Positions 1-16,168 of a stretch of 56,510 nucleotides of DNA are shown one piece after another; position 1 is the stretch's first letter; the number at the start of each line of letters is the position of its first letter. The notes under the pieces were generated by a model, which worked only from the letters and a program-made list of their open reading frames with translations, searched no databases and was not told the DNA's origin. Both the position numbers and the translations under genes were made by a program. Source of the stretch: Candidatus Sericytochromatia bacterium (lineage in GTDB: Bacteria; Cyanobacteriota; Sericytochromatia; S15B-MN24; JAQBPE01). Location of the stretch: assembly GCA_035285325.1 (NCBI GenBank), contig JAYKJB010000089.1, positions 1-56,510 of the forward strand, written 5' to 3'.

Positions 1-1572
1 ATAGGGATGCCCTTCCCACTTGTGAAAGCAGGATTGCCAGTATTCAAAGGTCCTGAGGTCATTCGGCGTCCCCCAGCCCAGATAGGCCTCCACTTCAAAC
101 AAGCGACAGTTCAGACCCAGGGCCAGCGCGTCATTGAGGCAGGCATCCAGATAAAATTCGCCGTTGACGCGGCCGTCCCGTTGCATCAGACGCTCCACGC
201 AGCGCTTGACGTCCTGGGCGCGGCGAAAGGTGAAGGTCCCCAGCACCAGTGGATCCGTGGCCGGGTCGGCCAAGGGCACCTTCACGGACACCGAACGGAC
301 ACGACCTGCCTCAGCCTCTATCCAGCCGAACATCTGGGGATGGCGGGCCGCATAGGGGTACCCTCGGATCGCCCAGACGATCACATCCACCTCAGGATCC
401 GCACACAAGGCCTCGAACTGGCCGGCATCGTAGACCATGCCATGGTCGCAGGCGCCAAAGGTGATCGGCCCCTCGAGAGGACCTTGGGCGGCCTCGAGGG
501 CTTCCAGCCCCAGCAGGGCCGAGCACGCCTGCCCTTCCGTCACCCCCGCGAGCGTTTCCAGATGCGCGCCGGGATACTGGCGCAACAGCTCAGCCGACAC
601 CGCTTCACAGCCTGGCATGTCGGCCCGCAGAACGAAGGCGTACCGGCGAGCCGGCGGCAGCGAGGCGGTGGCCTGCAAGACCATCGGGCGTCCCGACACC
701 GGAATGAGGGGCTTGGGGAGCGGGTAGCCTTCGTCAGCAAAGCGTTGCCCCAAACCGGCCATCGGCACCACCACACTTCCCCGCGGCACACCCTGGCCGC
801 GAGGTGAAGCCACCAGCGCGCGAAACGCCTCCGACCACGTCCGGTACTCAGCGACATCCTCCGGCGTTCCCCACTGCATGAAGTGTTGCAGGGGGTACAC
901 GGCCACGGGTTGACCGCTCGCGAGCAGGGGCTTGTAAGCCAGACTCACATAATACTCACCGGAAACGGCCAAACCCTGCGCCACGGTTTCCTGAAAGGCC
1001 TGACGCATCAAGGCCGCAGAGGCAAAGTAATAGGTTCCACTCGAGGCATATTCCGCCATGCGGTCGGAGGTAAAGGGCTGCTTCTCCTGGATGTCCTCGA
1101 CCCAACCGTCCGATTCCCGCACGTAGGCATAGTTGGTGGTACCCAGCGAATGGGGGTGGAAGCCGCGATAAGCCGGGATCGCCCCGGCACACGCCGTCTC
1201 CTGCACGAACGCCTGGAAATGCGCCCAGTTCCAGTAACAGGTGAAGTCGCAGTAATTCACGACGACCGGCTGTTCAGGCTTCAGGAGGTGTTCCACCTGC
1301 TGCACGGCATGAACGGGGCCCCGTTTGTGGGGCGCGATCCCGATCACCCGCCCGGTCGGACACCATTGGCGCAAGGTCGCCTCGAGCCCATAGGTGGGGT
1401 CATCGAGGTGGTCCTGATTGCAAATGAAGAGGAAGTCCGTCTCGCCCGGGAACATCGCGATGACGTGCGCGATGATCGGCTTGCCTTCCAGCTCGATCAG
1501 GGGCTTGGGCCGCGCATAGCCCGCACGGCGAAAACGCTCGCCAAAGCCTGACATGGGGATCACGATTTGCAC
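1..1572 (-). CDS. Tandem-domain sugar/choline-phosphate type nucleotidyltransferase (C-terminus outside window)
   Basis: The frame stays open to base 1, so the C-terminus is missing. Two nucleotidyltransferase domains of about 250 residues each follow one another. The first starts at residue 3 with IVIPMSGFGERF and then RPKPLIEL. The second starts near residue 267 with VVVPMAGLGQRF and then LPKPLIPV. Both show the G-x-G-x-R NTP-binding loop and the following K-P-L. Acidic positions that could bind the metal are visible in each half (NYCDF and GACDHG). Such domains transfer a nucleotide to a sugar phosphate or choline phosphate; the substrate here is unknown. I chose the GTG at 1572 because GAGAGGG lies about 10 nt upstream and the protein then begins VQIVIPM, typical of the family. 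It lies next to the accessory region. Confidence 0.75.
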   Translation of the reverse strand, partial: MQIVIPMSGFGERFRRAGYARPKPLIELEGKPIIAHVIAMFPGETDFLFICNQDHLDDPTYGLEATLRQWCPTGRVIGIAPHKRGPVHAVQQVEHLLKPEQPVVVNYCDFTCYWNWAHFQAFVQETACAGAIPAYRGFHPHSLGTTNYAYVRESDGWVEDIQEKQPFTSDRMAEYASSGTYYFASAALMRQAFQETVAQGLAVSGEYYVSLAYKPLLASGQPVAVYPLQHFMQWGTPEDVAEYRTWSEAFRALVASPRGQGVPRGSVVVPMAGLGQRFADEGYPLPKPLIPVSGRPMVLQATASLPPARRYAFVLRADMPGCEAVSAELLRQYPGAHLETLAGVTEGQACSALLGLEALEAAQGPLEGPITFGACDHGMVYDAGQFEALCADPEVDVIVWAIRGYPYAARHPQMFGWIEAEAGRVRSVSVKVPLADPATDPLVLGTFTFRRAQDVKRCVERLMQRDGRVNGEFYLDACLNDALALGLNCRLFEVEAYLGWGTPNDLRTFEYWQSCFHKWEGHPY

Positions 1573-1706
1573 GCTGGGGACACCCTCTCGGATGAGGACA
1601 GAACGCCTCTCTGGGCAGCGGTCTCGAAGTTCTCGTGGTCTGACGGAAGGGGCGTCGTGGGTTTGCGGCCTCAGCCGCCCTGCGACGGCCCAAGCTTTCC
1701 CGGAAA

Positions 1707-1893
1707 AACGCTCACCCCAGTGTAGCGTAAGTCCGGAGAGAGCTTCCGGCAGAGGCAATCGCTTGCCGACGGAGCCGATGTGCTCTGCCACGCCAGCGAT
1801 CGGCCAATCCCAGGACGCCTTCCGGGGAAGCGATCACCGGTTCCGGTAGCGGGTGCTCAGGTGATCGATGTGGAGCCGAATGCACAGCAGACG
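1707..1893. repeat. 187-bp direct repeat, copy 1
   Basis: This segment matches 5534-5720 in the same orientation with only about four differences over 187 bp. It contains an 8-bp perfect inverted pair (CGATCACC and GGTGATCG) and a small CCGGA/TCCGG hairpin. On the minus strand one frame reads ADRWRGRAHRLRRQA and ends SSLRTYATLG before a stop. This resembles the start of the core-binding domain of a tyrosine recombinase, which suggests a fragment of an integrase gene. No target-site duplication or terminal inverted repeat is evident. Confidence 0.9.
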
Positions 1894-1954
1894 TGGAGGC
1901 GGGGTACATTCGCCCACAGCACATACTTCTATCGACATATACGTGAGGCCCCTC

Positions 1955-4093
1955 ATGACCCATCGCCGCACGCTCCCCGCGCTCCTCCTCGCCACCGCCC
2001 TCGTAGGCTGCAGCACGACGTTCGCGGGCACCACCCCGACGCCGGGCACGGCGGCCGGGCCTCTTGGCGCCACCACCTCGGCCGCGTTGCCGGCCGGCGG
2101 CCCGCTGGTGGGCTCGGCCGTCCCGGGTGCGGGGGGGGCTGGTGGCGGGCAGGCCCCGGCGGCCGACGCCCCGCTGCCGCCGGAGCTCGCGGACCACACG
2201 TGGGGGCGGGTGCGGGGCTTCGCGCGGCTGATGGAAGGCGAGCCCTTCGGCGGCGCCACGATCAGCGGCTTCGACCTGGGGTCCAACGAGCCCGTCACGA
2301 TCCGCGCCACGGCGGATCTCGAGACCGGCGCGGCCAGGCCGACACCCCCCGTGACGGACGCGGACGGGAACTTCGACCTCATCGTGCAGGACCCCGGCGT
2401 CGGGAAGGTCGTGCGGCTCGTGATGACGCGCGGGGAGGAGCGCCTGATCACGGTGACGGACCCCTGGCCCGCCGAGCCGTCCCGGGTGGGCTACCGGCTG
2501 CAGCTCCGCAGGTCCCGGGTCGAGAACCTGAACGGTCCGATCAAGGTCGCCAAGGACGAGAACGGCAAGCCGGTTTTTATTGGACGGGGCGCGTACAACG
2601 AGGGGATGGGGAATCAAGTCGCGGAATCAGTAGGGACCTTTCTCCGGCTCAGGCAGGTGTATGCGATGGCCGACCTCGAGCTCTCCCTCAACGGCCTGTC
2701 GGCAATGGGGGCCATGAAGCTGCAGTTGCAACGCCCCGAGCAGGAGATCCAGGCGGGCATTAGCCGGCTGAGGTGGTGGACGTTCGAGGACCTGGAGCAG
2801 ACGTTCGAGAAGCTGAAGGCGGGTGGGTCACTCTCCGAGGCGGACAGGGGCTTCATCAAGACGACCATGCTCAGCGCCCCGGATGCGCGCGGCCTGCTGC
2901 GGGCGGACAAGGTGGAGGACTTCCGCAAAGCGATGTCGCTGCTCGGCAAATTCGGCAAGCGCGACGCGCTGGTGACCGAGGAGCTGAAGGTCCTCGCAGC
3001 GATGAACCTCGTCGGCCGCCTCAAAACCCCCATCGCCGTCGAAGCCAAGGACTTTCCGCTCGACCGGGTCGCCATCAGCCTCGCCGGGGTGCTGACCTTC
3101 ACGGGGCAGACCAACCCCGTGCGGATCTGGGGACCCCTCATGAGCCACTTCATCCCGACGCCAACGCTCTCCAGCGGCGGCAGCCGGACCGCCACGAGCA
3201 GCGGACAGGGAGGCGGCACGGGCCTCACACCCTCCCCTTCGGTGAGCCTGCAAGGGGGCCAACGACTGGCCTTCTTGCGACAGCCGATCGGCGGGGCGCA
3301 GCTGGTGGTAACCCGTAGTGCTGCGGCTCCCGAAGAGACCATTCTGGTCGCCCTGACGGGGGGGACGCCTCAGGCCTCTGGCGTGCTGGACCTGATTCCT
3401 TCTTCTGGAAGTGGTTGGAACGTTGCTCAGACCTTGAGCGGCAGTCGGACCTTGTACGTTGCGAGCGGCAGCAGTGCTGGACTTGCCTTTTACGAACCTG
3501 ATAGTCAGGCCAGTGGCCTCATTTTCCCCAATGGAGGCTATGCGCTGGCGGCCGACAGCACGCGTCTGTACGCTGCGAAAACCGGCTTTACCCAGCCTGT
3601 CCGCTGGATCAGTCAGGCCAATCATGCCGCGAGCAGCGTGCTGCAGGTGGCTGGCGCGAATTGGTTGATGACCAATCCGACCGCGATGACCGTGTTCGAC
3701 CCGGCCGTGGATGGCGTGCCGGTCTCCTCGGCGTCACCCACTCTTTTTATCGGAACCGACCCCTCGAACGCCGGAGGTGCGATTTTCTCAGCCCAGGATG
3801 GCGCCGCCACCGCTGTCCGGCTGGCGAGCGGATTGGGCGTGATTGAAGGCCTGGCCTACGCCTCGCCCGTTCTATACGTCAACCGAGGAGGCAATCAAAC
3901 CATCGTGGCCATCAACGTGAACACCGGGGCCTCCTCGGTGGTGGTATCGGCTTCCGGTGGCTCCAGCTTCGTGCAGGTTCCAGGACTGGGCTATCCCTTC
4001 GGGCTGACCTTGGATGACGATGGGGACCGCCTCTTCTTCCTGAAATCCACCGGGGTTCACGAGGTCGACCTCACTGGCTTTACCCGACCCTAG
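1955..4093 (+). CDS. Large lipoprotein with carboxypeptidase-regulatory-like and beta-propeller-like regions
   Basis: The 712-residue protein starts with a lipoprotein signal (MTHRRTLPALLLATALVGC, lipobox LVGC, Cys19), so it should be anchored in a membrane. An Ala/Gly/Pro-rich linker follows. Then comes a region (about 75-200) with 'VTDADGNFDLIV', reminiscent of carboxypeptidase regulatory-like domains, then a helical middle (about 210-400). A Ser/Gly-rich C-terminal half has recurring short strands such as 'LFIGTDPSNAGG' and 'RLFFLKSTGVHEVDL', suggesting a beta-propeller. The longest frame opens at 1868, but the ATG at 1955 gives a perfect signal peptide and has GTGAGG upstream. It lies between the two 187-bp repeats. 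Its layout recalls the 26883-30101 lipoprotein. Function unknown. Confidence 0.8.
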   Translation: MTHRRTLPALLLATALVGCSTTFAGTTPTPGTAAGPLGATTSAALPAGGPLVGSAVPGAGGAGGGQAPAADAPLPPELADHTWGRVRGFARLMEGEPFGGATISGFDLGSNEPVTIRATADLETGAARPTPPVTDADGNFDLIVQDPGVGKVVRLVMTRGEERLITVTDPWPAEPSRVGYRLQLRRSRVENLNGPIKVAKDENGKPVFIGRGAYNEGMGNQVAESVGTFLRLRQVYAMADLELSLNGLSAMGAMKLQLQRPEQEIQAGISRLRWWTFEDLEQTFEKLKAGGSLSEADRGFIKTTMLSAPDARGLLRADKVEDFRKAMSLLGKFGKRDALVTEELKVLAAMNLVGRLKTPIAVEAKDFPLDRVAISLAGVLTFTGQTNPVRIWGPLMSHFIPTPTLSSGGSRTATSSGQGGGTGLTPSPSVSLQGGQRLAFLRQPIGGAQLVVTRSAAAPEETILVALTGGTPQASGVLDLIPSSGSGWNVAQTLSGSRTLYVASGSSAGLAFYEPDSQASGLIFPNGGYALAADSTRLYAAKTGFTQPVRWISQANHAASSVLQVAGANWLMTNPTAMTVFDPAVDGVPVSSASPTLFIGTDPSNAGGAIFSAQDGAATAVRLASGLGVIEGLAYASPVLYVNRGGNQTIVAINVNTGASSVVVSASGGSSFVQVPGLGYPFGLTLDDDGDRLFFLKSTGVHEVDLTGFTRP

Positions 4094-4182
4094 GCGTCAC
4101 CCGTTGAAGCCTCACGCCTGCGACCGCGGCGGGGCCGGTTTGAACGTGGGCACAGCAGGCCTCTCACGGGTATGTGACCCCC

Positions 4183-4746
4183 ATGACCACCGACGACCAT
4201 GCCTGGAAGCAACTGCTCGACCCCCAGGGCCAGTTCCCTGCCGAGGCCCTGACGGGGCTGGAGCAGCGCGCCCGCGAGGCCCTGATGGCCTGCGGCGAGG
4301 TGGCGCTGGCGCAGACGGGCGAGGCCGCCGTCGACGGGCGCCGGCCGTTCGAGGCGGCGTTCTGGGCGCGGCTGCCGCGCTGGCGGACGCGGGACGTGTT
4401 CCAGGCCGACGTGCCCGTGGGGCTCGATTGGGGCGGCGAGGAGCTGGCCTTCCTCTCGCTCGTGGTGACGGAGGAGGCGCTGGAGGTGCGGCTGCCGGCG
4501 ATCGCCTGGACCACGGGCTACGGCGGCCCTGCCCTGGTCGCGAGCCTGTGGCGCCGGGAGGCGTTCTCCCAGCTGCGCAGCGCTGCCCTGCGGGCGCTGC
4601 TGGCGCAGGGCTTCGAGGCCCTGCGCGCCCGGCACGTGCTCTGCAGCCGCTGCGGCGAAGGCTTCGGGCCGGGGCGCTGCCTCACGGTGGGGGCCGAGGT
4701 GGTCTGCCACGGGTGCGCGGAGCAAGACCTCGGCGTGGTGTTCTGA
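4183..4746 (+). CDS. Hypothetical protein with C-terminal zinc ribbon
   Basis: This protein of about 187 residues is not assigned to a known family. Its body is rich in Ala, Leu, Arg and Glu. The C-terminus has CSRC, then about 18 residues later CHGC, a four-cysteine pattern expected to bind zinc. There is no signal peptide, so it is probably cytoplasmic. The start is uncertain: a GTG at 4174 and an ATG at 4183 are both in frame and neither has a clear ribosome binding site. Very high G+C third positions support real coding. It sits in the segment bounded by the 187-bp repeats. Confidence 0.65.
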   Translation: MTTDDHAWKQLLDPQGQFPAEALTGLEQRAREALMACGEVALAQTGEAAVDGRRPFEAAFWARLPRWRTRDVFQADVPVGLDWGGEELAFLSLVVTEEALEVRLPAIAWTTGYGGPALVASLWRREAFSQLRSAALRALLAQGFEALRARHVLCSRCGEGFGPGRCLTVGAEVVCHGCAEQDLGVVF

Positions 4747-4792
4747 GGGCAGGCGCCCCGGCAGCCCCGGTCGGGCTCGCGGCCCCAATCCA

Positions 4793-4823
4793 CCAAAAAG
4801 CCCCCCACCCGGAAAGCCAGGTG
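4793..4823. repeat. 31-bp copy of half of the tRNA-Leu terminator
   Basis: This stretch is identical over 31 bp to 7568-7598, which forms the A-run, one arm and loop of the terminator behind tRNA-Leu(CAA). Here the second hairpin arm is missing and the sequence diverges right after GGTG. It therefore looks like a recombination scar from a tRNA-Leu 3' flank. Confidence 0.85.
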
Positions 4824-5020
4824 ATCTGCGTGCGACACTTGAGGCCCTACGACCGGAATCAGGTAACCTGAATGAGGGGCCGCTGACCCCGGAGAGCGCC
4901 TACCTGCTGGCGTGCATCAAGGTTTGGGACGAGCAGCCGGAAAAGCCAGAAGCGGACATGCGCCAGGTCGGCCTCCAGCTGGCGGCTGATGCGGTCCGGG
5001 ATGACAGCGGGCCTCGGTAG
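4823..5020 (+). pseudogene. Possible 3' remnant of an unknown gene
   Basis: A start-less open frame follows the 31-bp scar and ends in TAG at 5018-5020. The peptide contains GPLTPESAYLLACIKVWDEQ and continues as a charged, helix-like sequence, unlike random translation. No ATG or GTG lies early in the frame, so it is more likely the tail of a gene whose front was lost at the 31-bp junction. I do not recognise the family. Confidence 0.35.
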
Positions 5021-5086
5021 TTCAGTTGGATAGATGGTGTCCGCCCTTAGAATGATGTCGGGGATTCGAGACTCTCCCGGAGCGCC
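5011..5086 (+). pseudogene. Degenerate tRNA-Arg-like sequence
   Basis: The sequence carries tRNA hallmarks: GTTCAGTTGGATAGA like a D-arm, GTCCGCC like the 5' anticodon stem, then GTCGGGGATTCGAG like a T-arm, and a GCGCC end. Overall it resembles tRNA-Arg(UCU). The acceptor strands (GCCTCGG against CCGGAGC) and the anticodon stem no longer pair properly and there are small indels, so I do not expect a working tRNA. A perfect terminator begins 10 bases downstream, as behind a real tRNA gene. Confidence 0.45.
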
Positions 5087-5095
5087 TGATGAGAA

Positions 5096-5134
5096 GCCGG
5101 TTTCCAGCGATGGCTGGAAACCGGCCTTTTCTTT
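5096..5134 (+). terminator. Strong Rho-independent terminator
   Basis: A perfect 13-bp stem (GCCGGTTTCCAGC) with a GATG loop is followed by CTTTTCTTT. It lies just behind the degenerate tRNA-like sequence and probably belonged to it. Confidence 0.9.
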
Positions 5135-5275
5135 CGGCATCCCTGGGGCATCCTTTGCGGTGCGGGTGACTTACCCTTGCTCGTCCTGAGAGACTAGCCT
5201 CAGCGCTGCCCGTGGGGTACACCAAGCCCGGCAGGCATTGACCGCCGGACGATGCGAGAAGCAGGAGGCACCTCG

Positions 5276-5464
5276 ATGCGTGAGACTCAGCCAGAAGGTT
5301 CGGACGAGAGCGACGAGGTCGCGGACGCGGACAGCGTGCTGAAAAAGCTCAAAAAGGTTTGGGCCCAAGGCCTCACCGCGCCCTCACCTGAGGACGAAGG
5401 CCCGCTGTGGGTGGACCCCGACATGCCGGTCTGGGGGAACATCGACCCGGACGAGGTGAGCTGA
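5276..5464 (+). CDS. Small acidic hypothetical protein
   Basis: A 62-residue, strongly acidic protein with one short basic patch (VLKKLKKVWAQ) and a C-terminal segment rich in Asp, Pro and Trp (WVDPDMPVWGNIDPDE). The ATG at 5276 has a perfect AGGAGG at 5263-5268, 7 bases upstream, which rules out the earlier in-frame start at 5252. It is followed after 34 bases by a second ORF with its own ribosome binding site. No family recognised. Confidence 0.65.
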   Translation: MRETQPEGSDESDEVADADSVLKKLKKVWAQGLTAPSPEDEGPLWVDPDMPVWGNIDPDEVS

Positions 5465-5498
5465 CCCAGCGGAGACCCTGCACCGGAGGACCGCAGCG

Positions 5499-5552
5499 AT
5501 GAGCGAGCAGCCAACCTACCCGAAACCCGAAACAACGCTCACCCCAGTGTAG
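5499..5552 (+). pseudogene. ORF start truncated by the 187-bp repeat
   Basis: An ATG preceded by GGAGG (5485-5489) starts MSEQPTYPKPE and runs straight into repeat copy 2 at 5534, where a TAG ends it after 17 codons. A well-formed ribosome binding site in front of so short a frame suggests that the original gene was cut when the repeat arrived. It would have been the second gene of a two-gene unit with 5276-5464. Confidence 0.45.
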
Positions 5553-5720
5553 CGTAAGTCCGGAGAGAGCTTCCGGCAGAGGCAATCGCTTGCTGACGGA
5601 GCCGATGTGCTCTGCCACGCCAGCGATCGGCCAATCCCAGGACGTCTTCGGGGGAAGCGATCACCGGTTCCGGTAGCGGTTGCTCAGGTGATCGATGTGG
5701 AGCCGAATGCACAGCAGACG
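5534..5720. repeat. 187-bp direct repeat, copy 2
   Basis: Nearly identical to 1707-1893 (about four mismatches), same orientation, start to start 3,827 bp. It has the same 8-bp inverted pair. On the minus strand it gives the same integrase-like frame (ADRWRGRAHRLRQQA, SSLRTYATLG, stop). Dropping one T before the stop would continue as LGERF, as expected in tyrosine recombinases, which hints at a frameshifted fragment. Confidence 0.9.
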
Positions 5721-5772
5721 ATGATGCAGGCAGCACGGTGGCCGTGGTGAAGCCTGACACCGGCGAGGTCCG

Positions 5773-6996
5773 TCACCCCTGCGGTCGTGGCGGGGCCGGG
5801 CGCCGATCGAGCCCACTGACCGTCGGCGTCGCCAGCGTCCACTCGAGGTCGTCCACGAGGTGAAGCAGGGCCGTCGCCTCCCAGACCCGGTTGCGCCGCC
5901 CGATCGAGACCTGCTTGAGGACCCCTGCCGCGCTCAGGTCGTTGAGGGCGCCGCGCACCGCCACCGCGCTCGCACCGACGAGGGCCTGGGCCGCCTCGGC
6001 GTTCAGCACGGGGTGGGCGGGCAGCAGCTGGATGAGGCGCTCAGCCGCGGAGTCGCTGCGGGGGTGGCCGAGGGCCTTCCGCCAGCGGCCCTGCAGCGCG
6101 AGCAGGTCGGCGTTGAGGCGCTTGGCGTGCTCGGTCGCGGCGTGGAGCGTGCGCAGGAAGGTCCGGCACCAGGCCAGCGCGTCGCCAGCCCGGAAGGCCG
6201 TCAGGCCTTCGACGTAACGCGTGGCGTTGGTAGCCAGCACCAGGCTCACGGGCGGCACGAAGTGGGGCGTCAGGCCGCGGCGACGCAGCACGGTGTGGAT
6301 CAATGCGCGGCCGACCCGGCCGTTGCCGTCGGCGAACGGGTGGATCGTCTCGAACTGCGCGTGCGCCACCGCCGCCTGGACGATCGCGGGCAGGTCCTCG
6401 CGGGCCAGGAAGTCGCACAGGTCCGCCAGCAGGGGCTCCACCTCGCCCTCGGGCGGCGGGATGAACTCGGCGTGCGCCGGGCTGTGCGACGAGCCCCCGA
6501 TCCAGTTCTGAGTCGTGCGGAGGCGGCCGGCAACCTCCCGGTCCTCGGTGCCTTCGAGCAGCTGGCGGTGGATGCGCAGCAGGTCCGCCACCTCGATGCG
6601 GACCGTCCGCGAGCCGAGCTGGATGGCGGCCTCCATCGCGGCGATGTTGCCCATCACCGAGCGGGCCAGCGCGTCGCCCTGCGCGGGCGCGAGTTCCGAG
6701 CGCGCGAGGCGCCGCTGCGAGAGCTGCAACCCCTCGATGCGGCTGGAGCCGATGCTCTCCGCCCTTAGCAGCTGACGGCTCAGGGCCTCGAGGCCGCTCA
6801 CCACCACGAGGTCCTGCAGCTGGGCGACCGCCTGCACCGTCGCCTCCAGCTCCTGCGCCAGGTCCAGCGGCAGCGCCAGCGTGAAGCCCGCCACCGGGTC
6901 GGGGACGTAGGCCTCGTAACGGAAGCCGCGGGCCGCCCGGTGCTGCTCACCCAGGCTCAGGTCTGGCTCCCACCAGCGTGACTCGAAGCGCGGCAT
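5773..6996 (-). CDS. Fic/DOC family AMP-transferase with N-terminal inhibitory motif
   Basis: The 407-residue protein carries the Fic active-site motif HPFADGNGRVGR at about residues 219-230 (catalytic His, phosphate-binding loop, Arg). Fic enzymes usually transfer AMP to a hydroxyl of a target protein. The segment SIGSSRIEG (about 81-89) matches the (S/T)xxxE(G/N) inhibitory helix at the N-terminal side, so it appears self-inhibited (class II). A C-terminal winged-helix-like region follows (about 320-390, 'VRGALNDLSAAGVL'). The frame opens at 7062, but the ATG at 6996 has GGGGAGAG 7 bases upstream and is preferred. It is convergent with repeat copy 2 and next to an HsdR remnant, which fits a defence locus. 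Confidence 0.88.
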   Translation of the reverse strand: MPRFESRWWEPDLSLGEQHRAARGFRYEAYVPDPVAGFTLALPLDLAQELEATVQAVAQLQDLVVVSGLEALSRQLLRAESIGSSRIEGLQLSQRRLARSELAPAQGDALARSVMGNIAAMEAAIQLGSRTVRIEVADLLRIHRQLLEGTEDREVAGRLRTTQNWIGGSSHSPAHAEFIPPPEGEVEPLLADLCDFLAREDLPAIVQAAVAHAQFETIHPFADGNGRVGRALIHTVLRRRGLTPHFVPPVSLVLATNATRYVEGLTAFRAGDALAWCRTFLRTLHAATEHAKRLNADLLALQGRWRKALGHPRSDSAAERLIQLLPAHPVLNAEAAQALVGASAVAVRGALNDLSAAGVLKQVSIGRRNRVWEATALLHLVDDLEWTLATPTVSGLDRRPAPPRPQG

Positions 6997-7068
6997 CGAC
7001 AAGCTCTCCCCGGCAGCGCCGTGCGAGGTCCGAGGGGCGTAACCTTTCGCACAGGGCTCCATAAGAAA

Positions 7069-7093
7069 CTATACCCGATAAGCCAATGTATAG
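7069..7093. promoter_or_regulatory. Inverted repeat upstream of the Fic gene
   Basis: CTATAC and GTATAG face each other across 13 bases in an AT-rich stretch about 75 bases upstream of the Fic start. It could be an operator or overlap the Fic promoter. No regulator gene is adjacent. Confidence 0.35.
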
Positions 7094-7203
7094 AGGCCGA
7101 TACGAAAGCCTGCCCCCGAGGGCTGCGCAGGACCGAGGGGTCCGCCACGCGCCTCCGTGGGGTATGAAGCGGGTGGCCCGTGCCCACAGGACAACAGCTG
7201 CCT

Positions 7204-7511
7204 ATGCCCGCCTTGCACCAAGAAATCCACTTCGAGACCGAGATCTGCGCGCGGCCGAGCTGATGAACGCGATCATGGACGCGCTCCAGGAGCACACCGC
7301 CATGAGCAAGTAGGCCCTCGCCTCCGAGCAGGTCCGCGGCAAGCTGCTCGGCGTGCTGCTCGGGCAGGGGCAGCTCTGGGAGGAGCTGCGGGCGCGTTCT
7401 GGGGCGCCTGCGCCGGAGGGTCGGGTGATGGAACTGCCACGGGCCCCTTACAACGGAGCCCTAGCGGCCGAGGCCCCGGAGGCGTGGGCGGGGCGATCGC
7501 CGGAGGGCTGA
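7204..7511 (+). pseudogene. hsdR: Collapsed type I restriction endonuclease subunit R (HsdR)
   Basis: The frame starts MPALHQEIHFETEICA, a typical HsdR N-terminus. It then jumps, with a frame change, to AELMNAIMDALQEHTAMSK and, past a TAG, to ALASEQVRGKLLGVLLGQGQ, which matches the C-terminal end of HsdR. The roughly 1,000 codons of nuclease and helicase between them are gone. The TAG stands where CAG (Gln) would be expected (AMSK-stop-ALASEQ), and the last frame ends at 7511. So an internal deletion plus a nonsense change destroyed the gene. No hsdM or hsdS remains in view. Confidence 0.7.
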
Positions 7512-7569
7512 GGCGCTCGCCCTCGGCACCCCGCCCGGCCGGATTTGTTACCCATAGTCATTATGAGCC

Positions 7570-7604
7570 AAAAAGCCCCCCACCCGGAAAGCCAGGTGGG
7601 GGGC
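7570..7604 (-). terminator. Terminator of tRNA-Leu
   Basis: On the minus strand a 10-bp perfect stem (GCCCCCCACC with GGTGGGGGGC) is followed by CTTTTTGG, six bases behind the tRNA. Half of it is copied at 4793-4823. Confidence 0.9.
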
Positions 7605-7609
7605 CAAAG

Positions 7610-7690
7610 TGCCCGAGGCCGGAGTCGAACCGGCATGCCTTGCGGCGGTCGATTTTGAGTCGACTGCGTCTGCCATTCCGCCACTCGGGC
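7610..7690 (-). tRNA. tRNA-Leu(CAA)
   Basis: Read on the minus strand, the acceptor GCCCGAG pairs with CTCGGGC and discriminator A follows. D-arm, a long variable arm (GCCGCAAGGC) and a T-arm with GGTTCGACTCC are present. The anticodon loop CTCAAAA gives anticodon CAA at 7655-7657, so it reads UUG leucine. CCA is not encoded. It marks the right border of the accessory region. Confidence 0.95.
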
Positions 7691-7756: not shown

Positions 7757-8791
7757 TCAGGTTTTGACGAAGAACAGCTCGCGATCGAGCTTGGGAAAGA
7801 ACTCCCGCAGCACCGGATGCTGGTGCCAGACGCCGAGCAGGTTGGCGAGATACTCCATCTGCTCCGCGAGGGGCTCGAACTTGCCCCCCTTGCGCACGTC
7901 CGTCACCTGGTCTCGCAGATGACCGTAAAGTTCCACCGCACTACCGGCCAACTGCGCGGCGCGCGGATCATCTTTGAGACGCTGCGCGAGCAGGCGTTCT
8001 CGCCGCGATTGGGTGCTGAAGATATCCAGCAAGGCTGCCCCGATCGCAGGACGCTGCATGTCGACGGTGCGCTTGAGCGCCTCCATGCCGGGCGCCAGGT
8101 AGCGCAGCACCTGTTCCCCTTGCTGCAGCGTCGCCTGACGCAACTGCTGATGCCGCAGGGCGGCATCGCCGCCGGAGAGCAACTGGGTCCCCCGCGCCTG
8201 CAAATGTCCGGTGGCGGCCCTCGCCTGAGGCGACGGCGCGGCCTCCGGAGGCGGAAACATCTGGGCGAGCAGCGAGTCCTGGCGGAACTCGACGTGCAAA
8301 TTGGTCAGGGGATAAAACTTGCGCTTGACCTCCTCCAGGGTATGCGGGCCCGCCACCCCTTCGCGCATCTGCACGCGCGCGTCGGTGACGGCCTGGCGGG
8401 CTTCATGAAACCGGAAAATCGCCACCTGGATCTGCTGCGCGACACTGGCATTGACCACCACCAGCTTCTCGAGATACGCAATGATCTTTTTGCCTTGGGG
8501 CGACACGGCGTGCTTGAACGCCCAGTTCTCGACGCCCGGAATCGGCAATCCGGCACTTTGAACCGAATGCACCAGCAACTCAACGCGCTGTTCGAGCACG
8601 TGGATGTGCTTGCCGACCCGGGCCACCGTGGTTTCCACCACGGACTGCATGGCAGGGTCGTCCCATTGCAAGGCGTCACTCTGGCGCCCCCCCCCTGGCG
8701 AGGGCTTGCGCAGAGGCTGGGTGCCTGAGGGCAGCGCCTGGGTGTTCAGCTTGAGCTGATCACCGCTGCGTTTGGATTTGTCCTCGCTCAC
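7757..8791 (-). CDS. Hypothetical helical cytoplasmic protein
   Basis: A 344-residue protein I cannot assign. It has no signal peptide or membrane segment. After a polar N-terminal 45 residues it is almost all predicted helix, with heptad-like stretches (LEQRVELLVHSVQSA; LRHQQLRQATLQQGEQVL) split by a Pro/Ala linker near residue 185. The GTG at 8791 gives MSEDKSKRSGD and has GGGAA about 7 bases upstream. It ends 67 bases from the tRNA-Leu gene. A structural or scaffolding role is possible but unsupported. Confidence 0.7.
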   Translation of the reverse strand: MSEDKSKRSGDQLKLNTQALPSGTQPLRKPSPGGGRQSDALQWDDPAMQSVVETTVARVGKHIHVLEQRVELLVHSVQSAGLPIPGVENWAFKHAVSPQGKKIIAYLEKLVVVNASVAQQIQVAIFRFHEARQAVTDARVQMREGVAGPHTLEEVKRKFYPLTNLHVEFRQDSLLAQMFPPPEAAPSPQARAATGHLQARGTQLLSGGDAALRHQQLRQATLQQGEQVLRYLAPGMEALKRTVDMQRPAIGAALLDIFSTQSRRERLLAQRLKDDPRAAQLAGSAVELYGHLRDQVTDVRKGGKFEPLAEQMEYLANLLGVWHQHPVLREFFPKLDRELFFVKT

Positions 8792-9168
8792 GATCGGTTC
8801 CCGGCTGGCGTGTCCCCAGGATCAGGGGAGGGGCTCCCCGTCAGGTCCTGCTCCCGCTTCATACCCGCTGACAGGTCCTCTGCCTCAGGGCGGCCAGGCG
8901 CCCCCGACGTGCCCAGGATCACGCACCTGGTGTGTCGGGGGTCCTCGCCGGGCCGCCCCGATCGCGCGCACCATGGGAAACCCTGAAAGGTGTTTTGCCC
9001 GCATGTCCCACCCGCGTCCCATCCGCCCAGGCAAGAGCTGGCGCTCCCTGGAATCCAACCTGCCCGTCCGGCCCCCTGGGCCTCCCCGGACAGCATCGTC
9101 CCGTCCGCCTCATCATTTTGCCTGGATGGCCAGCTGGCTACCAGCCGGGCAACAGCCCGAAAACGCGC
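8792..9168. other. Intergenic region, nothing recognised
   Basis: About 377 bases between two minus-strand genes. Open frames on both strands here lack ribosome binding sites and coding character. It should hold the promoter of the 7757-8791 gene, but I see no convincing -35/-10 pair. Confidence 0.5.
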
Positions 9169-10680
9169 TCACGGGTTAAAAATCAAGGTTCCCAGGCTGC
9201 GATTCACCGCCCCGACGTGGCCCGGCAACGCCAGCGCCTCCCCCCCGTAGGTAATGGCATACAGGCGAGACGCCTGGAAAAACAGCCAGGTGTCGGCTGC
9301 CCAGCTCCCTTGCCGCTGGGCCACCTTCACCGTCTGGACGCCAAAACGGGCTTCAACCCGAGCACCGGGGCCATAGGTCGCGGCTTCCAACATCAGGAAC
9401 TGGCGCGCGCGCGCCGCCCGCTGATCCGCGCGATAGCGTTCCAGTTCGGGCACCTCCCGCCAGACCATCAACAAGGTGGGCGGCTGCTCACTGGTCCGGC
9501 GATCGCCCGCCGCGGGAGGCGGCCCGAACAGGGCGCGAAACTCCCCGTGGTCATCTCCTTCATCGAGCAAGATGAACCCCACGGGGGGCACGAATTCGAA
9601 GGTGCCGTCCATGCCCTTGAAGTATCCGGGGCGGGCGTTTCGCGCCCGCGGGCGCGTGCCGGAACTGGCCGGCTGAGCCGCCAACCAGGGGGTGCGCGGG
9701 GGCGGCGTGGCGGTCGCGCGGATCACCCGCCGCGGGTTCGGCGCAGACAGCAGAGGCTCCGGCGGAAGCACGAGGCCCCCCGCGGACGCCCCCGCTGGTC
9801 CTGCCGGGGGTAACGCGGCGCTGACGGGAACAGGCGGGCTGGTAGGGGTCGGGCTGGCTGGCTGGGGGCGCGAGAACGCAGCGGTCGGTGCCGCTGAAGG
9901 CAGGGCCACCCGGGCGGCCGAGGGAAGCGAGGAGGCCGCGACGCTCGCTGGGGGCGACCCGGGGCTGGTGGTCGGGGAGGAGTCGGACGGCGGCGGAGGC
10001 GCTGACATCCGCAGGCTTGGAGCGGGTGAAGATGACCCGGCCGGCAGCGGCGACCCGGGCAGCAGAGGAGCGAATTTCCCCAGAGGCCTCGCGACGCCTC
10101 GGGGCGACTCCAAGGACGGGGAGGCGACGACCGGGGGGGCGGACCGCGCCATGGCGGGCGCCTGGGGCCCGGAGCGGGGGGGCACCACCTGAGCCGAAGG
10201 CGAAGGCGAGGCAAGCGTCACTCCCAGCGAAGGGGTCGCGCGCGGCAGCCCCGCGCGCGGATCCGATTCGAGCGGCGGCGGGGAGGGAGGCGGACTCAGC
10301 CTGTCGTTCGACCCGGGTAGCGGGAGCCGTCCGGCCGCCACGTCACCAAAGGAGGCCAGCCACATCTCCGCATCCCGTCCAAAAGGCCCCTGAGGGTCGA
10401 GTTCCTGGACCCGATGCCAGGCGACGGCTGACTCTGCATATTGCCCCAGGCGCCACGTCACCAGCGCGATGTAATAGTGGGCCTCGCGATCGCCAGGCCG
10501 GATCTCCACGAGCTGCCGCAAGCGTTGCAAGGCACTCTCGTAGTGAGCGCTACGATAGTCCGAACGAATCTCCTGCCAGGCCGGGTCATCGCTGGCGCGG
10601 GCGGAGCGTCCGAAGAAGGAAAGGGCCAGCACGAGGGCACAGGTGGCCACGCAGACGCGCCGAGGCATCCGGATCAACAT
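9169..10680 (-). CDS. Exported TPR protein with proline-rich linker
   Basis: The 503-residue protein has a Sec-type signal peptide (basic start, hydrophobic CVATCALVLALSFF, cleavage near ARA-S). Residues about 35-110 form TPR-like helix pairs ('SALQRLRQLVEIRPGDREAH', 'YAESAVAWHRVQELDP'). Then comes a Pro/Ser/Ala linker of about 250 residues. The compact C-terminal domain (about 355-503, from YFKGMDGTFEFVPP) ends in beta-like segments and may fold alone. The layout suggests an envelope protein that projects the C-terminal domain on a flexible stalk. It is divergent from recJ over 149 bases. Confidence 0.75.
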   Translation of the reverse strand: MLIRMPRRVCVATCALVLALSFFGRSARASDDPAWQEIRSDYRSAHYESALQRLRQLVEIRPGDREAHYYIALVTWRLGQYAESAVAWHRVQELDPQGPFGRDAEMWLASFGDVAAGRLPLPGSNDRLSPPPSPPPLESDPRAGLPRATPSLGVTLASPSPSAQVVPPRSGPQAPAMARSAPPVVASPSLESPRGVARPLGKFAPLLPGSPLPAGSSSPAPSLRMSAPPPPSDSSPTTSPGSPPASVAASSLPSAARVALPSAAPTAAFSRPQPASPTPTSPPVPVSAALPPAGPAGASAGGLVLPPEPLLSAPNPRRVIRATATPPPRTPWLAAQPASSGTRPRARNARPGYFKGMDGTFEFVPPVGFILLDEGDDHGEFRALFGPPPAAGDRRTSEQPPTLLMVWREVPELERYRADQRAARARQFLMLEAATYGPGARVEARFGVQTVKVAQRQGSWAADTWLFFQASRLYAITYGGEALALPGHVGAVNRSLGTLIFNP

Positions 10681-10829
10681 GCCCCTATGTTACGCAGTGT
10701 CTTGCCTGCACGCAATTCGCGCAAGGCCGAAGAGGGGAAGGTTCGCCAGGGTAGATAAGGAAGGCGTGCCCGCGGGAAGGAGGCCAGGGCCAGCCTGCCC
10801 GCGCATGAAGCGCCCCCGGAAGGAGTCCC

Positions 10830-12557
10830 GTGCCGGCCCACCCGCGTCTGTACTGGCAAACCCGTGCGACCTCGAACGCGAGTTCCGAGGCCCTGCGCCA
10901 GGCCCTCGGCCTTCCGCCGTTGCTGGCCACGGTGCTGGCTGCCCGCGGCTGGCAGCCGGGCGCAGCCGTCGACGCCTTTCTGGCGGAGGCGGAGGAAGCG
11001 GAACCTGACTACACGGCCCTGCCCGGAATGGCCTTGGCCGTCGCTCGGCTGCGCGAGGCGATTCTGGCGGAGGAGTCGATCACGGTCTGCGGCGATTACG
11101 ACATCGACGGGATCACGGCCACGGCCCTGTTGCTTCAAGCGTTGCGGCAACACGGCGCGCGGGTCGATTATCACCTGCCCCAACGCAACACGGACGGTTA
11201 CGGCCTCACCACGGCGGCGCTCGACGCGCTGGCCGCGGCGGGTTCTCAAGTGCTGGTGACCGTGGACAGCGGCACCACGGCCCTGGAGGAACTGGCCCAC
11301 GCGCGCGCGCTCGGGCTTGCCGTGATCGTGACGGACCATCACCTTCCGGGGCCTCGACTGCCGCCAGCCGTGGCCATCGTCAACCCCCATCTGGCAGACG
11401 CCCCTGGTGTGCTGGCCCCCCTCTCGGGCGTGGGGCTGGCCTATGCCCTCGCGCGCGCGCTCGACGCGGCGCACCCGGTGGACGGCGCCGACGCCAGGGA
11501 CCTGCAAGACCTGGTGGTGCTGGGCACCTTGAGCGACCAGGCGCCCCTGTCGCAGGAAAATCGGCGGCTGGTGAAGCTCGGACTCGAACGCATTCGTCGC
11601 GCGCCGCGTCCGGGCATCGCGGCGCTGGCACGGGTGGCGAAGTGCAACCTCAAACAACGCTACATCGCCGAGCAGCTGTCCCAACGCGTGATCCCCCGAC
11701 TGAATGCGGCGGGTCGCATGGCGCACCCGCGCCTGGCGCTCGAATTGCTGTTGAATGAGGACGAAGCCAGCTCCAGCGAAATGGCGCAACATCTGGAGCG
11801 ACTCAACCACGAGCGCCGCACGCTCTCGCTGGTGATCGAAAGTGAGGTGCAGGCGTTGATCTCCTTGAACGAATTGCCCCGCGGGCCGGCCGTGGTGCTG
11901 CACAATGCGCACTGGCACCACGGCGTGCTGGGCATCGTCGCGTCGCGGGTGGCGGGTCGAGAAAATCGGCCGACCCTGCTGCTGGCCCCCGAAAATGGTG
12001 GCACCTGGCGTGGCTCCGGGCGCAGCCCGGCTCATTTCGATCTGCACGCCGCCCTGAGCCGCGTTCAGCAGCACGTGGTGCGTTTCGGCGGACACGGTCA
12101 GGCCGTCGGCGTCAGTGTTCGCGAGGCGGACATGGCGGCGTTCGTGACGGCGCTTCAGGCCGAGGTTCAGGCCATGATGGGGGATGCGGCCTACGCCCCG
12201 AAAGTCTGGAAAGTGGATGCGGAGGTGCCGCTCGGCTGGCTCAGTTACGAGACCGTCGCCGAACTGGATCGCCTGGAGCCGACCGGGCCGGAAAACCCCG
12301 CACCGCTCTTCGTGGCCAGACACCTGAGGGTCGTCCGACAGGAGCGTCGAGGCCCGGAGAACGAGCATCTGTGGCTCGAACTCGCCGATGACACGGGCAC
12401 GCTGCCGGCGATCGCCTTTGGGCGCGGCGGCCAGTACCCGCTCGAAACGCCCCACCTCGACGCCGTGTTCGTGCCCCTGGCCGAACGCTGGCAGGGGCGC
12501 AACCGTCTGACCCTCAAGATTCTCGATCTCTGCCCTTCCCCCAACCAAGCTGGATGA
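10830..12557 (+). CDS. recJ: Single-stranded-DNA-specific 5'-3' exonuclease RecJ
   Basis: A 575-residue DHH/DHHA1 phosphoesterase. RecJ digests single-stranded DNA from the 5' end in recombination and repair. Motif I is GDYDIDG (88-94), TVDSG lies near 144, and the DHH motif is TDHH (168-171). The DHHA1 domain has FGGHGQAVG near 410, followed by the OB-fold end. Family members often have DYDADG and DCG; the Ile and Ser here are mild variants. The GTG at 10830 has GGAAGGAG 4-5 bases upstream. It is followed by apt and rel, as in the recJ-apt-relA order known from Bacillus and relatives. Confidence 0.95.
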
Positions 12558-12568
12558 AAGGAGTGGCC

Positions 12569-13099
12569 ATGCCCACCCCCACCTCGCTCGATCTCGAGAC
12601 CTACGTGCGCGACATTCCGGATTTTCCGCAACCCGGCATTGTCTTCAAGGACATCTCGCCCTTGCTCAGGGATGCCGAGGCCTTCCAGAGCGCCATCGAC
12701 CGGCTGGTCGCGCATTACCGCCCCCTGGCGATCGACTACGTGGTCGGCATCGAAAGCCGGGGCTTTCTGGTGGGGGCGCCCCTGGCCTATCACCTGGGCA
12801 AGGGCTTCATCCCGGTGCGCAAGCCCGGGAAACTCCCCTATCAGACCGAAAAGATCGACTACACGCTGGAATATGGGTCGGGCTCGCTGGAGATCCACGC
12901 CGATGCCCTGAAAGCGGGGCATCGGGTCCTGATCATCGATGATCTGCTGGCCACCGGCGGCACCGTGGCGGCCACGCGGGCGCTGATCGAGCGGATGGGG
13001 GGCCAGGTGGCGGCGGCTGGTTTCCTGATCGAGCTGGCCTTTCTGGCCGGGCGCGACAGACTCCCCGGCCTGGACGTCCATGCGTTGCTGACTTACTGA
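12569..13099 (+). CDS. apt: Adenine phosphoribosyltransferase
   Basis: A 176-residue protein that makes AMP from adenine and PRPP (purine salvage). The PRPP-binding motif [13 protein letters not shown] is intact, as are the N-terminal [15 protein letters not shown] and the VVGIESRGF segment. An in-frame ATG at 12554 overlaps the recJ stop, but the ATG at 12569 has AAAGGAG just upstream and gives the usual length. It forms a unit with recJ (11-base gap). The 283 bases to rel hold no clear terminator. Confidence 0.96.
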
Positions 13100-13382
13100 A
13101 GGCGAAAAAAGGCCGATTTTCCAGCCGGCCGGCCTGGGCCGTGGGGCATCCCGGCGATCGCACCGCCCCCGTTCCGGCATCGAATCAGGCTTGCTGGGGA
13201 AGAATAGGGTGTGACCATCCAGTCTGATACGATGGAATCGATGACGCCCCCCGACGCAGCGAGAGGCAAGCGGGCAAGCGCCTCTCGCCGCCACGCCAGG
13301 CGGCCGTCCGACGCGGGACGACCCCCTACCCCCAGCGCTGTGGGTCCAGGCGAGGCAACCAGGCCCAGACACGGCGACCCCC

Positions 13383-15578
13383 ATGGCGCAAAAGTCTTCG
13401 GTCGATACTGACGGCCTGTTCAAAGCCATTGGCACCTACCTCCCAGCGGAGGACCAGGGCCTGGTCCGGCGTGCCTTCGCGCTAGCGGAACAGCTCCACG
13501 CGGGCCAAACCCGCAAATCGGGTGAGCCCTACGTCATGCACCCGGTCGAGGTGGCCAAGATTCTGGCGGGCCTCGAAGCAGATGGCGCCACCGTGGCGGC
13601 CGGGCTGCTGCACGATGTGCTCGAAGATTGCCACATCGACGCCGAAGAACTGCGCAAACAGTTCGGTTCCGAAGTGTGTCGGCTGGTCGAAGGCGTCACC
13701 AAGCTCGGCAAGATTTCCTTCTCCAGCAAGGAAGAACGGCAGGCGGAGAATTTCCGCCGCATGTTCCTGGCGATGGGCAACGACATCCGGGTAATCCTGC
13801 TGAAGCTGGCGGACCGCCTGCACAACATGCGCACGCTGGCGCACATGAAGGAAGAAAAGCAGCACGAGATTGCCCGCGAAACGCTGGAAATCTTCGCGCC
13901 GCTGGCGCATCGTCTCGGTCTCGGACGTATCAAGGCCGAGCTGGAAGATTGGTCCCTGCGCTACCTTCACCCGGAGGAGTACTACAAGCTGGCCCAGCTG
14001 GTGGCGGCCAAACGCGAGGAACGCGAGGCGATCATCGCGCGCATCGTGGGCGACCTGCAGGGAGAACTCAGCAAGCTGGAGATTCCCTGCAAGCTGTCGG
14101 GGCGCCCCAAGCACTTCTACAGCATCTGGCAGAAGATGGTGCAGCAGAAGAAAGAGTTCACGGACCTCTATGACATCACGGCCGTGCGCGTGCTGGTGGA
14201 CTCGCTGAAGGAGTGTTACGAGACATTGGGCGTGGTCCACTCGCTCTGGAAGCCCATTCCAGGCCGCTTCAAGGACTACATCGCCATGCCGAAGTCCAAC
14301 ATGTACCAGTCGCTGCACACCGCGGTGATCGGTCCCAAGGGCAGCCCGGTCGAGATCCAGATCCGCACCTTCGAGATGCACCGCGTGGCCGAATACGGCA
14401 TTGCCGCGCACTGGCGCTACAAGGAAGGCAGCCGCGCGATCGGAGACGCGGACCAGAAGCTCACGTGGTTGCGCCAGATGCTCGACTGGCAAAACGACCT
14501 GAAAGACGCGCACGAATACCTCAACACGGTCAAGGAGGACCTGTTCGCCGACGAGGTCTTCGTGTTCAGCCCCCGCGGGGACGTGATCGATCTGCCGCGC
14601 GGCGCCACCCCGATCGACTTTGCCTACCGGATTCACACCGACGTCGGGCACCGCTGCGTGGGCGCAAAGGTCAACGGACGGATCGTCACGCTGGACACCC
14701 ATCTGCGCAACGGGGACATCGTCGAGGTGATCAACAGCAAGACGCCCCACCCCAGCCGCGACTGGCTCAAGATTGCCGCCACCACCTCGGCCAAGAACCG
14801 CATCCGGCAGTGGTACAAGAAGGAGCACCGCGACGAGAACATCCAGCTGGGCCGGGAGGGCCTTGAGCGCGAAGTGGGCCGTGCCGGCCTGGAACAGCTG
14901 CTCAAGAGCGATCGGGCGCTCGAGACGGCCCAGAAGTTCAACATGACCACCGTGGATGACATGCTCGCGGCGATCGGCTACGGCGAACTGGGCGTGACCC
15001 AGGTGCTCAACCGGCTGAAGCCGGAGGCCCCGCCGCCCAACCTCCCCCCCGAAGCGCCCAAAGAAGCACCGCGGCAGAAAGGAGGCGGCAAGGAAAAGAA
15101 CACCATCCTGATCGACGGCAGCGACTCGATGCTGGTCAACCTGGCCCGCTGCTGCATGCCTCTGCCTGGCGAACCCGTGCGCGGGGCCGTCACGCGTGGG
15201 CGAGGCATCACGGTGCATGCCGCCGAGTGTCCGAACCTGGCACAGGTCGATCCGGGTCGGATCGTGCAAGTCGAGTGGGCGCCTTCCGCCTCCGGCAGCA
15301 CCTACCCGGTGGAGATCGAGATTGAATTGATGGATCGCGTGGGCCTGCTCAAAGATGTTTCCGCCAAGATCGCGGACATCAAAACCAACATCCGGGCGGC
15401 CCGCATCCGCACCTTGCGAAACAAATCTGCGATCATCAACCTGGTCATCGACATCAGCGACATGAACCACCTGCAGCGGGTGCTGGCGACCGTCTCCAAA
15501 ATCAGCGACGTGGTGCGGGCCAACCGGGTCACCAAGATGCGCCAGCCGCCCAGCCGCTCCCCCAAGGCGACTCCGTGA
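13383..15578 (+). CDS. rel: Bifunctional (p)ppGpp synthetase/hydrolase
   Basis: The 731-residue protein has the full long-RSH layout. The HD hydrolase domain shows HD at 77-78 and ED at 81-82. The synthetase domain has RFKDYIAMPKSNMYQSLHT (295-313) and EIQIRT (324-329). Then come TGS (about 395-455), a CC-containing zinc-finger region (LARCCMPLPG) and a C-terminal ACT domain (about 655-720). The intact HD site and the RFKD loop point to both making and breaking (p)ppGpp. No strong ribosome binding site precedes the ATG; a 57-codon frame (13241-13411) overlaps the start and might couple translation. It overlaps rdgB by one base. Confidence 0.96.
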   Translation: MAQKSSVDTDGLFKAIGTYLPAEDQGLVRRAFALAEQLHAGQTRKSGEPYVMHPVEVAKILAGLEADGATVAAGLLHDVLEDCHIDAEELRKQFGSEVCRLVEGVTKLGKISFSSKEERQAENFRRMFLAMGNDIRVILLKLADRLHNMRTLAHMKEEKQHEIARETLEIFAPLAHRLGLGRIKAELEDWSLRYLHPEEYYKLAQLVAAKREEREAIIARIVGDLQGELSKLEIPCKLSGRPKHFYSIWQKMVQQKKEFTDLYDITAVRVLVDSLKECYETLGVVHSLWKPIPGRFKDYIAMPKSNMYQSLHTAVIGPKGSPVEIQIRTFEMHRVAEYGIAAHWRYKEGSRAIGDADQKLTWLRQMLDWQNDLKDAHEYLNTVKEDLFADEVFVFSPRGDVIDLPRGATPIDFAYRIHTDVGHRCVGAKVNGRIVTLDTHLRNGDIVEVINSKTPHPSRDWLKIAATTSAKNRIRQWYKKEHRDENIQLGREGLEREVGRAGLEQLLKSDRALETAQKFNMTTVDDMLAAIGYGELGVTQVLNRLKPEAPPPNLPPEAPKEAPRQKGGGKEKNTILIDGSDSMLVNLARCCMPLPGEPVRGAVTRGRGITVHAAECPNLAQVDPGRIVQVEWAPSASGSTYPVEIEIELMDRVGLLKDVSAKIADIKTNIRAARIRTLRNKSAIINLVIDISDMNHLQRVLATVSKISDVVRANRVTKMRQPPSRSPKATP

Positions 15579-16168
15579 TGACAACCATCCTGCTGGTCTC
15601 GACCAACCCTGGCAAGCTCGATGAGCTCCGCAGTCTCTTTGAGACGGACGAGAAGGCCGAGTCACGCTGGCAGTTCGCGCTGACCCCTTACCCGCTGGAA
15701 GTAGACGAAACCGGCGCAACCTTCATCGAAAATGCAACACTCAAAGCACAAGCGGGAGCCAAAACCTTCAATCAACCTTGCCTGGCGGATGACTCTGGTC
15801 TTTGCGTGGAAGCACTCGGCGGGAGACCCGGGATACACTCTGCGCGCTATGCCGCCACCCCCGAAGCCCGCATTGCCCGTCTGCTGGATGAACTGGCGGG
15901 CACGTCCCAACGGCAGGCCGCCTTCGTCTGCGCCATGGCGCTGGCCTGGCCGGATGGGCGCCTGATCACGGTCGAAGGCCGCTGCGAGGGGACCATCCTG
16001 ATAGCGCCCTGCGGCACCGGGGGCTTCGGCTATGACCCGATTTTTTTTCATGCCCCCTCCGGGCGAACCTTCGCGGAGTTGTCCAAGGCCGAGAAGAACC
16101 GTTTCAGCCACCGGGCCCAGGCGGCCGCCGCCCTGAAAACGGCCCTGGCAGGCTCCGCCATCGGATAG
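15578..16168 (+). CDS. rdgB: XTP/dITP pyrophosphatase (RdgB/HAM1)
   Basis: A 196-residue house-cleaning enzyme that hydrolyses deaminated purine triphosphates (ITP, dITP, XTP) so they do not enter nucleic acids. The N-terminal STNPGKLDEL phosphate-binding motif, LADDSGLCVEALGGRPGIHS and the GFGYDPIFF segment are all present. The ATG overlaps the rel stop (GTGATGA), which indicates translational coupling; a GTG three bases upstream is the alternative. It sits beside rel and apt, all acting on purine nucleotides. Confidence 0.96.
   Translation: MTTILLVSTNPGKLDELRSLFETDEKAESRWQFALTPYPLEVDETGATFIENATLKAQAGAKTFNQPCLADDSGLCVEALGGRPGIHSARYAATPEARIARLLDELAGTSQRQAAFVCAMALAWPDGRLITVEGRCEGTILIAPCGTGGFGYDPIFFHAPSGRTFAELSKAEKNRFSHRAQAAAALKTALAGSAIG

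Follow-up and report, generated by a model that had tools for sequence, protein, structure and literature searches.

A tRNA-Leu(CAA) gene of a Sericytochromatia bacterium as a probable attachment site reused by integrative elements

We analysed a 56,510-nt stretch of DNA (the window) from a Candidatus Sericytochromatia bacterium, which is the entire contig C89 of genome G000, a 3.83-Mb assembly in 138 contigs. The gene make-up of the window shifts between positions 1570 and 7610, to the left of a gene for tRNA-Leu(CAA), and beyond 7700 the window is syntenic with relatives. We propose that the 3′ half of this tRNA gene is an attachment (att) site reused by integrative elements and that the window holds a worn-down occupant of the site, a reading to which we give a probability of roughly three in four. 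The tRNA gene, its surroundings and the conserved genes to its right are as follows.

7543-7553, minus strand: GGGTAACAAAT, about 55 nt beyond tRNA-Leu, presumably an integrase arm-type site
7568-7605, minus strand: intrinsic terminator of tRNA-Leu, in which 7568-7598 is the right copy of a 31-nt direct repeat
7609-7690, minus strand: tRNA-Leu(CAA), the hotspot anchor (ARAGORN; Rfam RF00005, 55.6 bits)
7757-8791, minus strand: gene for 344 aa, the first conserved gene right of the tRNA, with an ortholog in genome G001
10809-12554, plus strand: RecJ-like gene, in the part of the right flank kept in G001 and G006 by sequence synteny

The original prediction looked to related genomes for different cargo beside the same tRNA, and on the tRNA side this is what we found. 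Several orthologs of the genes at 7757-16165 lie in order in G001 (contig C339), of the same family, and some of them in G006 (contig C44), of another family of the same order. The right-hand genes of G001 are kept from the 344-aa gene on, with unrelated genes beyond it, on a contig without the tRNA. In G006 the RecJ-like gene and its neighbours adjoin tRNA-Leu(CAA), as in the window, and on the other side of the tRNA the content differs. None of the window's cargo was found at this site in G006 or G001, and no empty site with both flanks was seen among the relatives examined. The gene at 10809-12554 is one that we take to be RecJ-like from relatives found by search and from knowledge of the family; a contig scan with its alignment returned only distant phyla and no close relative. 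The 344-aa gene has paralogs, its family counting about 11 members in G001 and 4 in G000, and it matches nothing in Pfam.

Duplications of the tRNA 3′ half were found in two relatives. The cargo of G006 is a 4.4-kb restriction-modification cassette, integrase-free inside (G006:C44:63590-68054; L066:3591-8055), which reads from the tRNA as an Eco29kI-related GIY-YIG gene, a C5 methyltransferase, a second Eco29kI-type gene and Vsr. It is closed by a 58-bp copy (95%) of tRNA-Leu(CAA), running from the anticodon loop to the 3′ end, after which a Fic gene follows. In G007, tRNA-Leu(CAA) lies on contig C32 and a 55-bp, 100% identical copy of its 3′ half on contig C6. The C6 copy adjoins a P4-type tyrosine integrase (PF00589, PF13356 (Arm-DNA-bind_3) and PF22022); a Vsr-like gene lies beyond the copy, and an NrS-1-polymerase-like gene further inside the element. 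On our reading, C32 and C6 would be the two ends of one element. G007 resembles P4-type tyrosine-integrase elements in the pairing of PF13356 with PF00589, in an att core that spans the anticodon loop to the 3′ end, and in a replication-type gene nearby. The window differs from such elements in having neither an integrase nor a distal att copy, while an arm-like site remains.

This arm-like site is the 11-mer GGGTAACAAAT, which occupies the same place in the window, G006 and G007 (chance about 6e-6 by composition). The motif GGGTAACA is found some 45-85 bp beyond the tRNA in G006 (two copies), G007 (three copies), the window and one viral contig, and the integrase end of G007 carries four more. 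The viral contig, L214 of IMG/VR, has a tRNA-Leu(TAG), a GGGTAACA pair 51 nt past the tRNA and an integrase; it is the only case in which a tRNA gene was found near GGGTAACA pairs in viral contigs. Pair spacings in IMG/VR peak at 12 (28 of 105 tallied) and 11 (11/105). In a comparison of spacings chosen post hoc, after the motif had been seen, pairs spaced 11-12 bp lay within 600 bp of a tyrosine integrase at 8 of 45 viral loci, as against 1 of 75 at other spacings (Fisher p 0.0016; random positions 3.6%). Because pairs at 11-12 bp are enriched beside tyrosine integrases, at one locus together with a tRNA-Leu, GGGTAACA and GGGTAACAAAT most likely represent an integrase arm-type site. The motif is not general for the PF13356 family, since of ten loci with a PF13356 integrase that were inspected in the relatives, G007:C6 alone carries several copies, and G008:C222 carries one. 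Dense GGGTAACA arrays in both orientations occur in IMG/VR contigs L203, L190 and L192, in which a purpose-built profile found no integrase.

Each feature named in the original prediction was confirmed in the sequence. To the left of the tRNA, the window carries the following features, here in left-to-right order from position 1; GGGTAACAAAT, the terminator and tRNA-Leu(CAA) complete the series to 7690.

1-1569, minus strand: nucleotidyltransferase gene, open at the contig edge, the proposed left border
1707-1893, strand not applicable: copy A of a 187-nt repeat
1955-4093, plus strand: lipoprotein-like gene for 712 aa, no family
4174-4746, plus strand: orphan gene for 190 aa, with a GC content at third codon positions (GC3) of 0.96, absent from 19 relatives
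4793-4823, minus strand: half a terminator, which matches 7568-7598 exactly over 31 nt and forms the left copy of that repeat
5000-5217, plus strand: copied tRNA-Arg(CCT) segment, a pseudogene (5011-5086) with about 130 nt of 3′ flank
5252-5464, plus strand: small open reading frame (ORF) of 70 aa, no family
5534-5720, strand not applicable: copy B of the 187-nt repeat, 4 mismatches from copy A
5773-7062, minus strand: intact Fic/SoFic-type AMP-transferase gene (PF02661, 1.2e-21; PADLOC SoFic, 9e-73)
7204-7403, plus strand: hsdR remnant, its first 15 codons fused to its last 54 or so, with an in-frame TAG

We favour the following mechanism. Integrative elements with P4-type tyrosine integrases would use the 3′ half of tRNA-Leu(CAA) as their attachment site in this order of bacteria, the integrases presumably binding GGGTAACA arm sites just past the tRNA, and on more than one occasion such elements would have delivered defence and accessory genes there. 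Further insertions and losses would have followed. The window would represent a late stage, its integrase and distal attachment copy lost or beyond the contig end, and what is left would be one tRNA-proximal arm site, the hsdR stub, the intact Fic gene, the orphan genes and the decayed tRNA-Arg copy. A later event, most simply an insertion that placed 4824-7598 in the terminator, beside the 190-aa gene, would have made the 31-nt repeat. Because the window keeps one arm-type site and lacks the integrase and a second tRNA copy, we read it as a degraded, composite occupant; the same two absences are why its mechanism is inferred from the relatives, and the part played by the motif, the delivery of the window's cargo by such an integrase and the order of events are likewise inferred.

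Several observations weigh against this reading. In the window the tRNA-Leu 3′ half occurs once, and the one direct repeat found with it, of 31 nt, belongs to the terminator, whereas the relatives have their att cores at the tRNA 3′ half; neither a recombinase nor a precedent for a 31-nt terminator core was found. No integrase was detected in the window interval by the purpose-built profile or Pfam, and the entire G000 assembly has none of the PF13356 type. (A strict sequence pattern overlooked the majority of integrases and was dropped in favour of the profile.) Only one arm-type site is retained in the window, and the spacing comparison was post hoc. The tRNA and integrase ends of G007 are on separate contigs, and the flank of its tRNA shows no synteny with the window. 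All relatives compared are genomes from outside the genus. Finally, no ortholog of the nucleotidyltransferase was found at E 1e-30 among 19 relatives, and the gene is cut off by the contig end. A hotspot running from the nucleotidyltransferase to tRNA-Leu, as originally predicted, held up on its tRNA side; on its left the border is no more than proposed, the gene there having no counterpart in the relatives. The two domains predicted for that gene fared unequally, the first matching Pfam and the second matching NCBIfam weakly.

A more far-reaching version has a family of defence cassettes, bounded by att copies and lacking an integrase of their own, at tRNA-Leu(CAA) in this order of bacteria. 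Resident satellite-like elements would supply P4-type integrases that recognise the same GGGTAACA arm sites and move the cassettes in trans; the restriction cassette of G006 would then be a near-complete case and the window a decayed one. We think this version unlikely.

The 31-nt repeat bears on another explanation. The complete hairpin at tRNA-Leu folds at -34 kcal/mol (z -5.3), and once the flanks are joined at the repeat, a perfect, complete terminator results between the convergent 190-aa gene and tRNA-Leu, which suggests an insertion at this point. Positions 4824-7598 might accordingly be a discrete 2.8-kb mobile unit in the tRNA-Leu terminator, with the repeat as its own attachment core or as a target duplication. 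The exactness of the direct repeat and the restored terminator both fit such a unit, but 4824-7598 contains no recombinase, its contents are of unequal age (the tRNA-Arg copy 11% diverged, and a 2% repeat whose other copy lies outside the unit), and the core in relatives is the tRNA 3′ half, not the terminator. We regard this explanation as possible, though tentative. Since the divergences of the three sets of copies are unequal (0% for the 31-nt repeat, 2% for the 187-nt repeat and 11% for the tRNA-Arg copy), several superimposed events are implied, in agreement with the original prediction; judged by divergence, the exact half-terminator repeat is the youngest mark.

The older marks are a copied tRNA gene and a longer repeat. 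The 218-nt tRNA-Arg segment is 89% identical to the intact tRNA-Arg(CCT) locus of the same genome (G000:C3:18777-18994), with a sharp left edge 11 nt ahead of the tRNA. Neither ARAGORN nor Rfam recognised 5011-5086, and we consider the copy an unconstrained pseudogene because mismatches are equally dense in the tRNA part (10/76) and in the flank (12/130). The two copies of the 187-nt repeat, which differ at 1767, 1818, 1823 and 1853, are the only ones in the whole 3.83-Mb assembly. Searches of plasmids, phages and 38 related genomes gave merely chance matches of 23-33 nt, an exact 36-mer of the repeat is not in IMG/VR, its RNA fold is insignificant (z -1.0 to -1.6), and PHROGs has no family for the single longish frame on its minus strand. 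The 56.5-kb window has only two dispersed families of exact repeats that reach 25 nt, those of 31 and 187 nt; the two further families are tandem. For the claim that the rest of the window is orderly, the check covered repeats and tRNAs, and found no further dispersed exact repeat of that length.

Repeats and odd junctions of this kind can also come from a mis-joined metagenome contig, and the 138 contigs, the 2.96% contamination of the assembly and the closeness of the interval to a contig end are in keeping with this. We judge such an artefact very improbable: the repeat copies are unlike each other (4/187), the tRNA-Arg copy is 11% diverged, Fic homologs exist in the same order of bacteria, and the left-hand genes form no separate set by GC content.

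The decay of the hsdR gene is plain. The stub matches residues 1-15 and 978-1030 of a 1037-residue HsdR (63% identity in the C-terminal part), so that about 960 codons were lost, and it scores 59 bits, as against at most 24 bits for shuffled DNA. The C-terminal piece matched no Pfam family and no PDB chain, and it was comparing it to two plasmid HsdR proteins that settled its identity. By its sequence, the stub is dead. A simple internal deletion would account for it, and this agrees with a different view of the interval, namely that weakly constrained, non-essential DNA between operons is decaying here, with fragments left by illegitimate recombination, local duplication and deletion, and with the tRNA incidental. 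The lack of an integrase or a tRNA att pair in the window points the same way, as does the fact that no standard att layout accommodates either repeat (31 or 187 nt) or the tRNA-Arg copy. However, relatives have true att duplications and differing cargo at the same tRNA, and their 11-mer stands at the same position in the window; we find an incidental tRNA quite unlikely and retain the reused attachment site as the preferred reading.

As such, the site is a known kind of hotspot, a common arrangement in a poorly sampled lineage. In E. coli, 18 of 41 hotspots are in tRNA loci, several of them used by P4-like satellites (PMC10121019). The present site shares with these the tRNA anchor, a flank of conserved core genes to one side of it, defence cargo that varies, and occupants without further mobility genes; it differs in its sparser sampling, in that no empty site was seen, and in its decayed, integrase-less occupant. 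With this, a tRNA-anchored hotspot with restriction-modification genes in relatives is documented for a little-studied order, and GGGTAACA, in repeats 11-12 bp apart, offers a way to locate the attachment sites of such elements even after loss of the integrase.

Tycheposons are associated with tRNAs. Elements that depend on helpers ('hitchers', which include tycheposons) are already known (PMC11389934), and the site resembles them, as a resemblance only, in being a small tRNA-linked island in the same broad bacterial group that could depend on a helper; it differs in that no tycheposon hallmark gene turned up in the window, where none was specifically sought.

The Fic gene is the intact member of the cargo. 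Both its motifs are complete, the inhibitory SSRIEG at aa 106-111 near the N terminus and the catalytic HPFADGNGRVGR at aa 241-252, and it fits the class II pattern (catalytic HPFx(D/E)GN(G/K)R with an N-terminal inhibitory (S/T)xxxE(G/N)). With these two motifs intact, the product is probably a functional, self-restrained AMP-transferase. Structural matches were PDB 7cb8 at 1e-66 and SoFic structures at about 1e-10. The gene is like SoFic-type class II enzymes in its PADLOC match and both motifs; it differs in falling below the NCBIfam equivalog threshold (57 bits, cut-off 550) and is for that reason a relative of SoFic, not an equivalog. The PADLOC match makes it a candidate defence gene. 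Homologs of 49-63% identity occur in G001, G003, G006 and G007 beside differing neighbours, for example a TIR-domain gene or an ADP-ribosylglycohydrolase, and so the gene moves about. Its GC3 (0.93), like that of the 190-aa gene, is outside the range of the four flanking genes measured (0.79-0.85).

The genes described earlier as without family remain so, as the 712-, 190- and 70-aa ORFs had no match in Pfam, NCBIfam, PADLOC or PHROGs, and an open frame in 4824-5000 also had no family. GC3 within the 712-aa gene drops sharply near 3240, from 0.91 in the N-terminal half to 0.70 in the C-terminal half, as though two genes had been fused. The sole database relatives of the 190-aa protein are weak (29%, E 4e-4) and lie on mobilizable plasmids of the filamentous cyanobacteria Tolypothrix and Microchaete. 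Coding tandem repeats of 24, 48 and 96 bp lie at 29514-29817. The C terminus of the 70-aa ORF (5411-5464) shares DPDMP(V/I)WGNI(D/N)PDEV with a fragment elsewhere in the assembly (G000:C72:62-121), the remainder being different, and the two possibly belong to a small mobile gene family.

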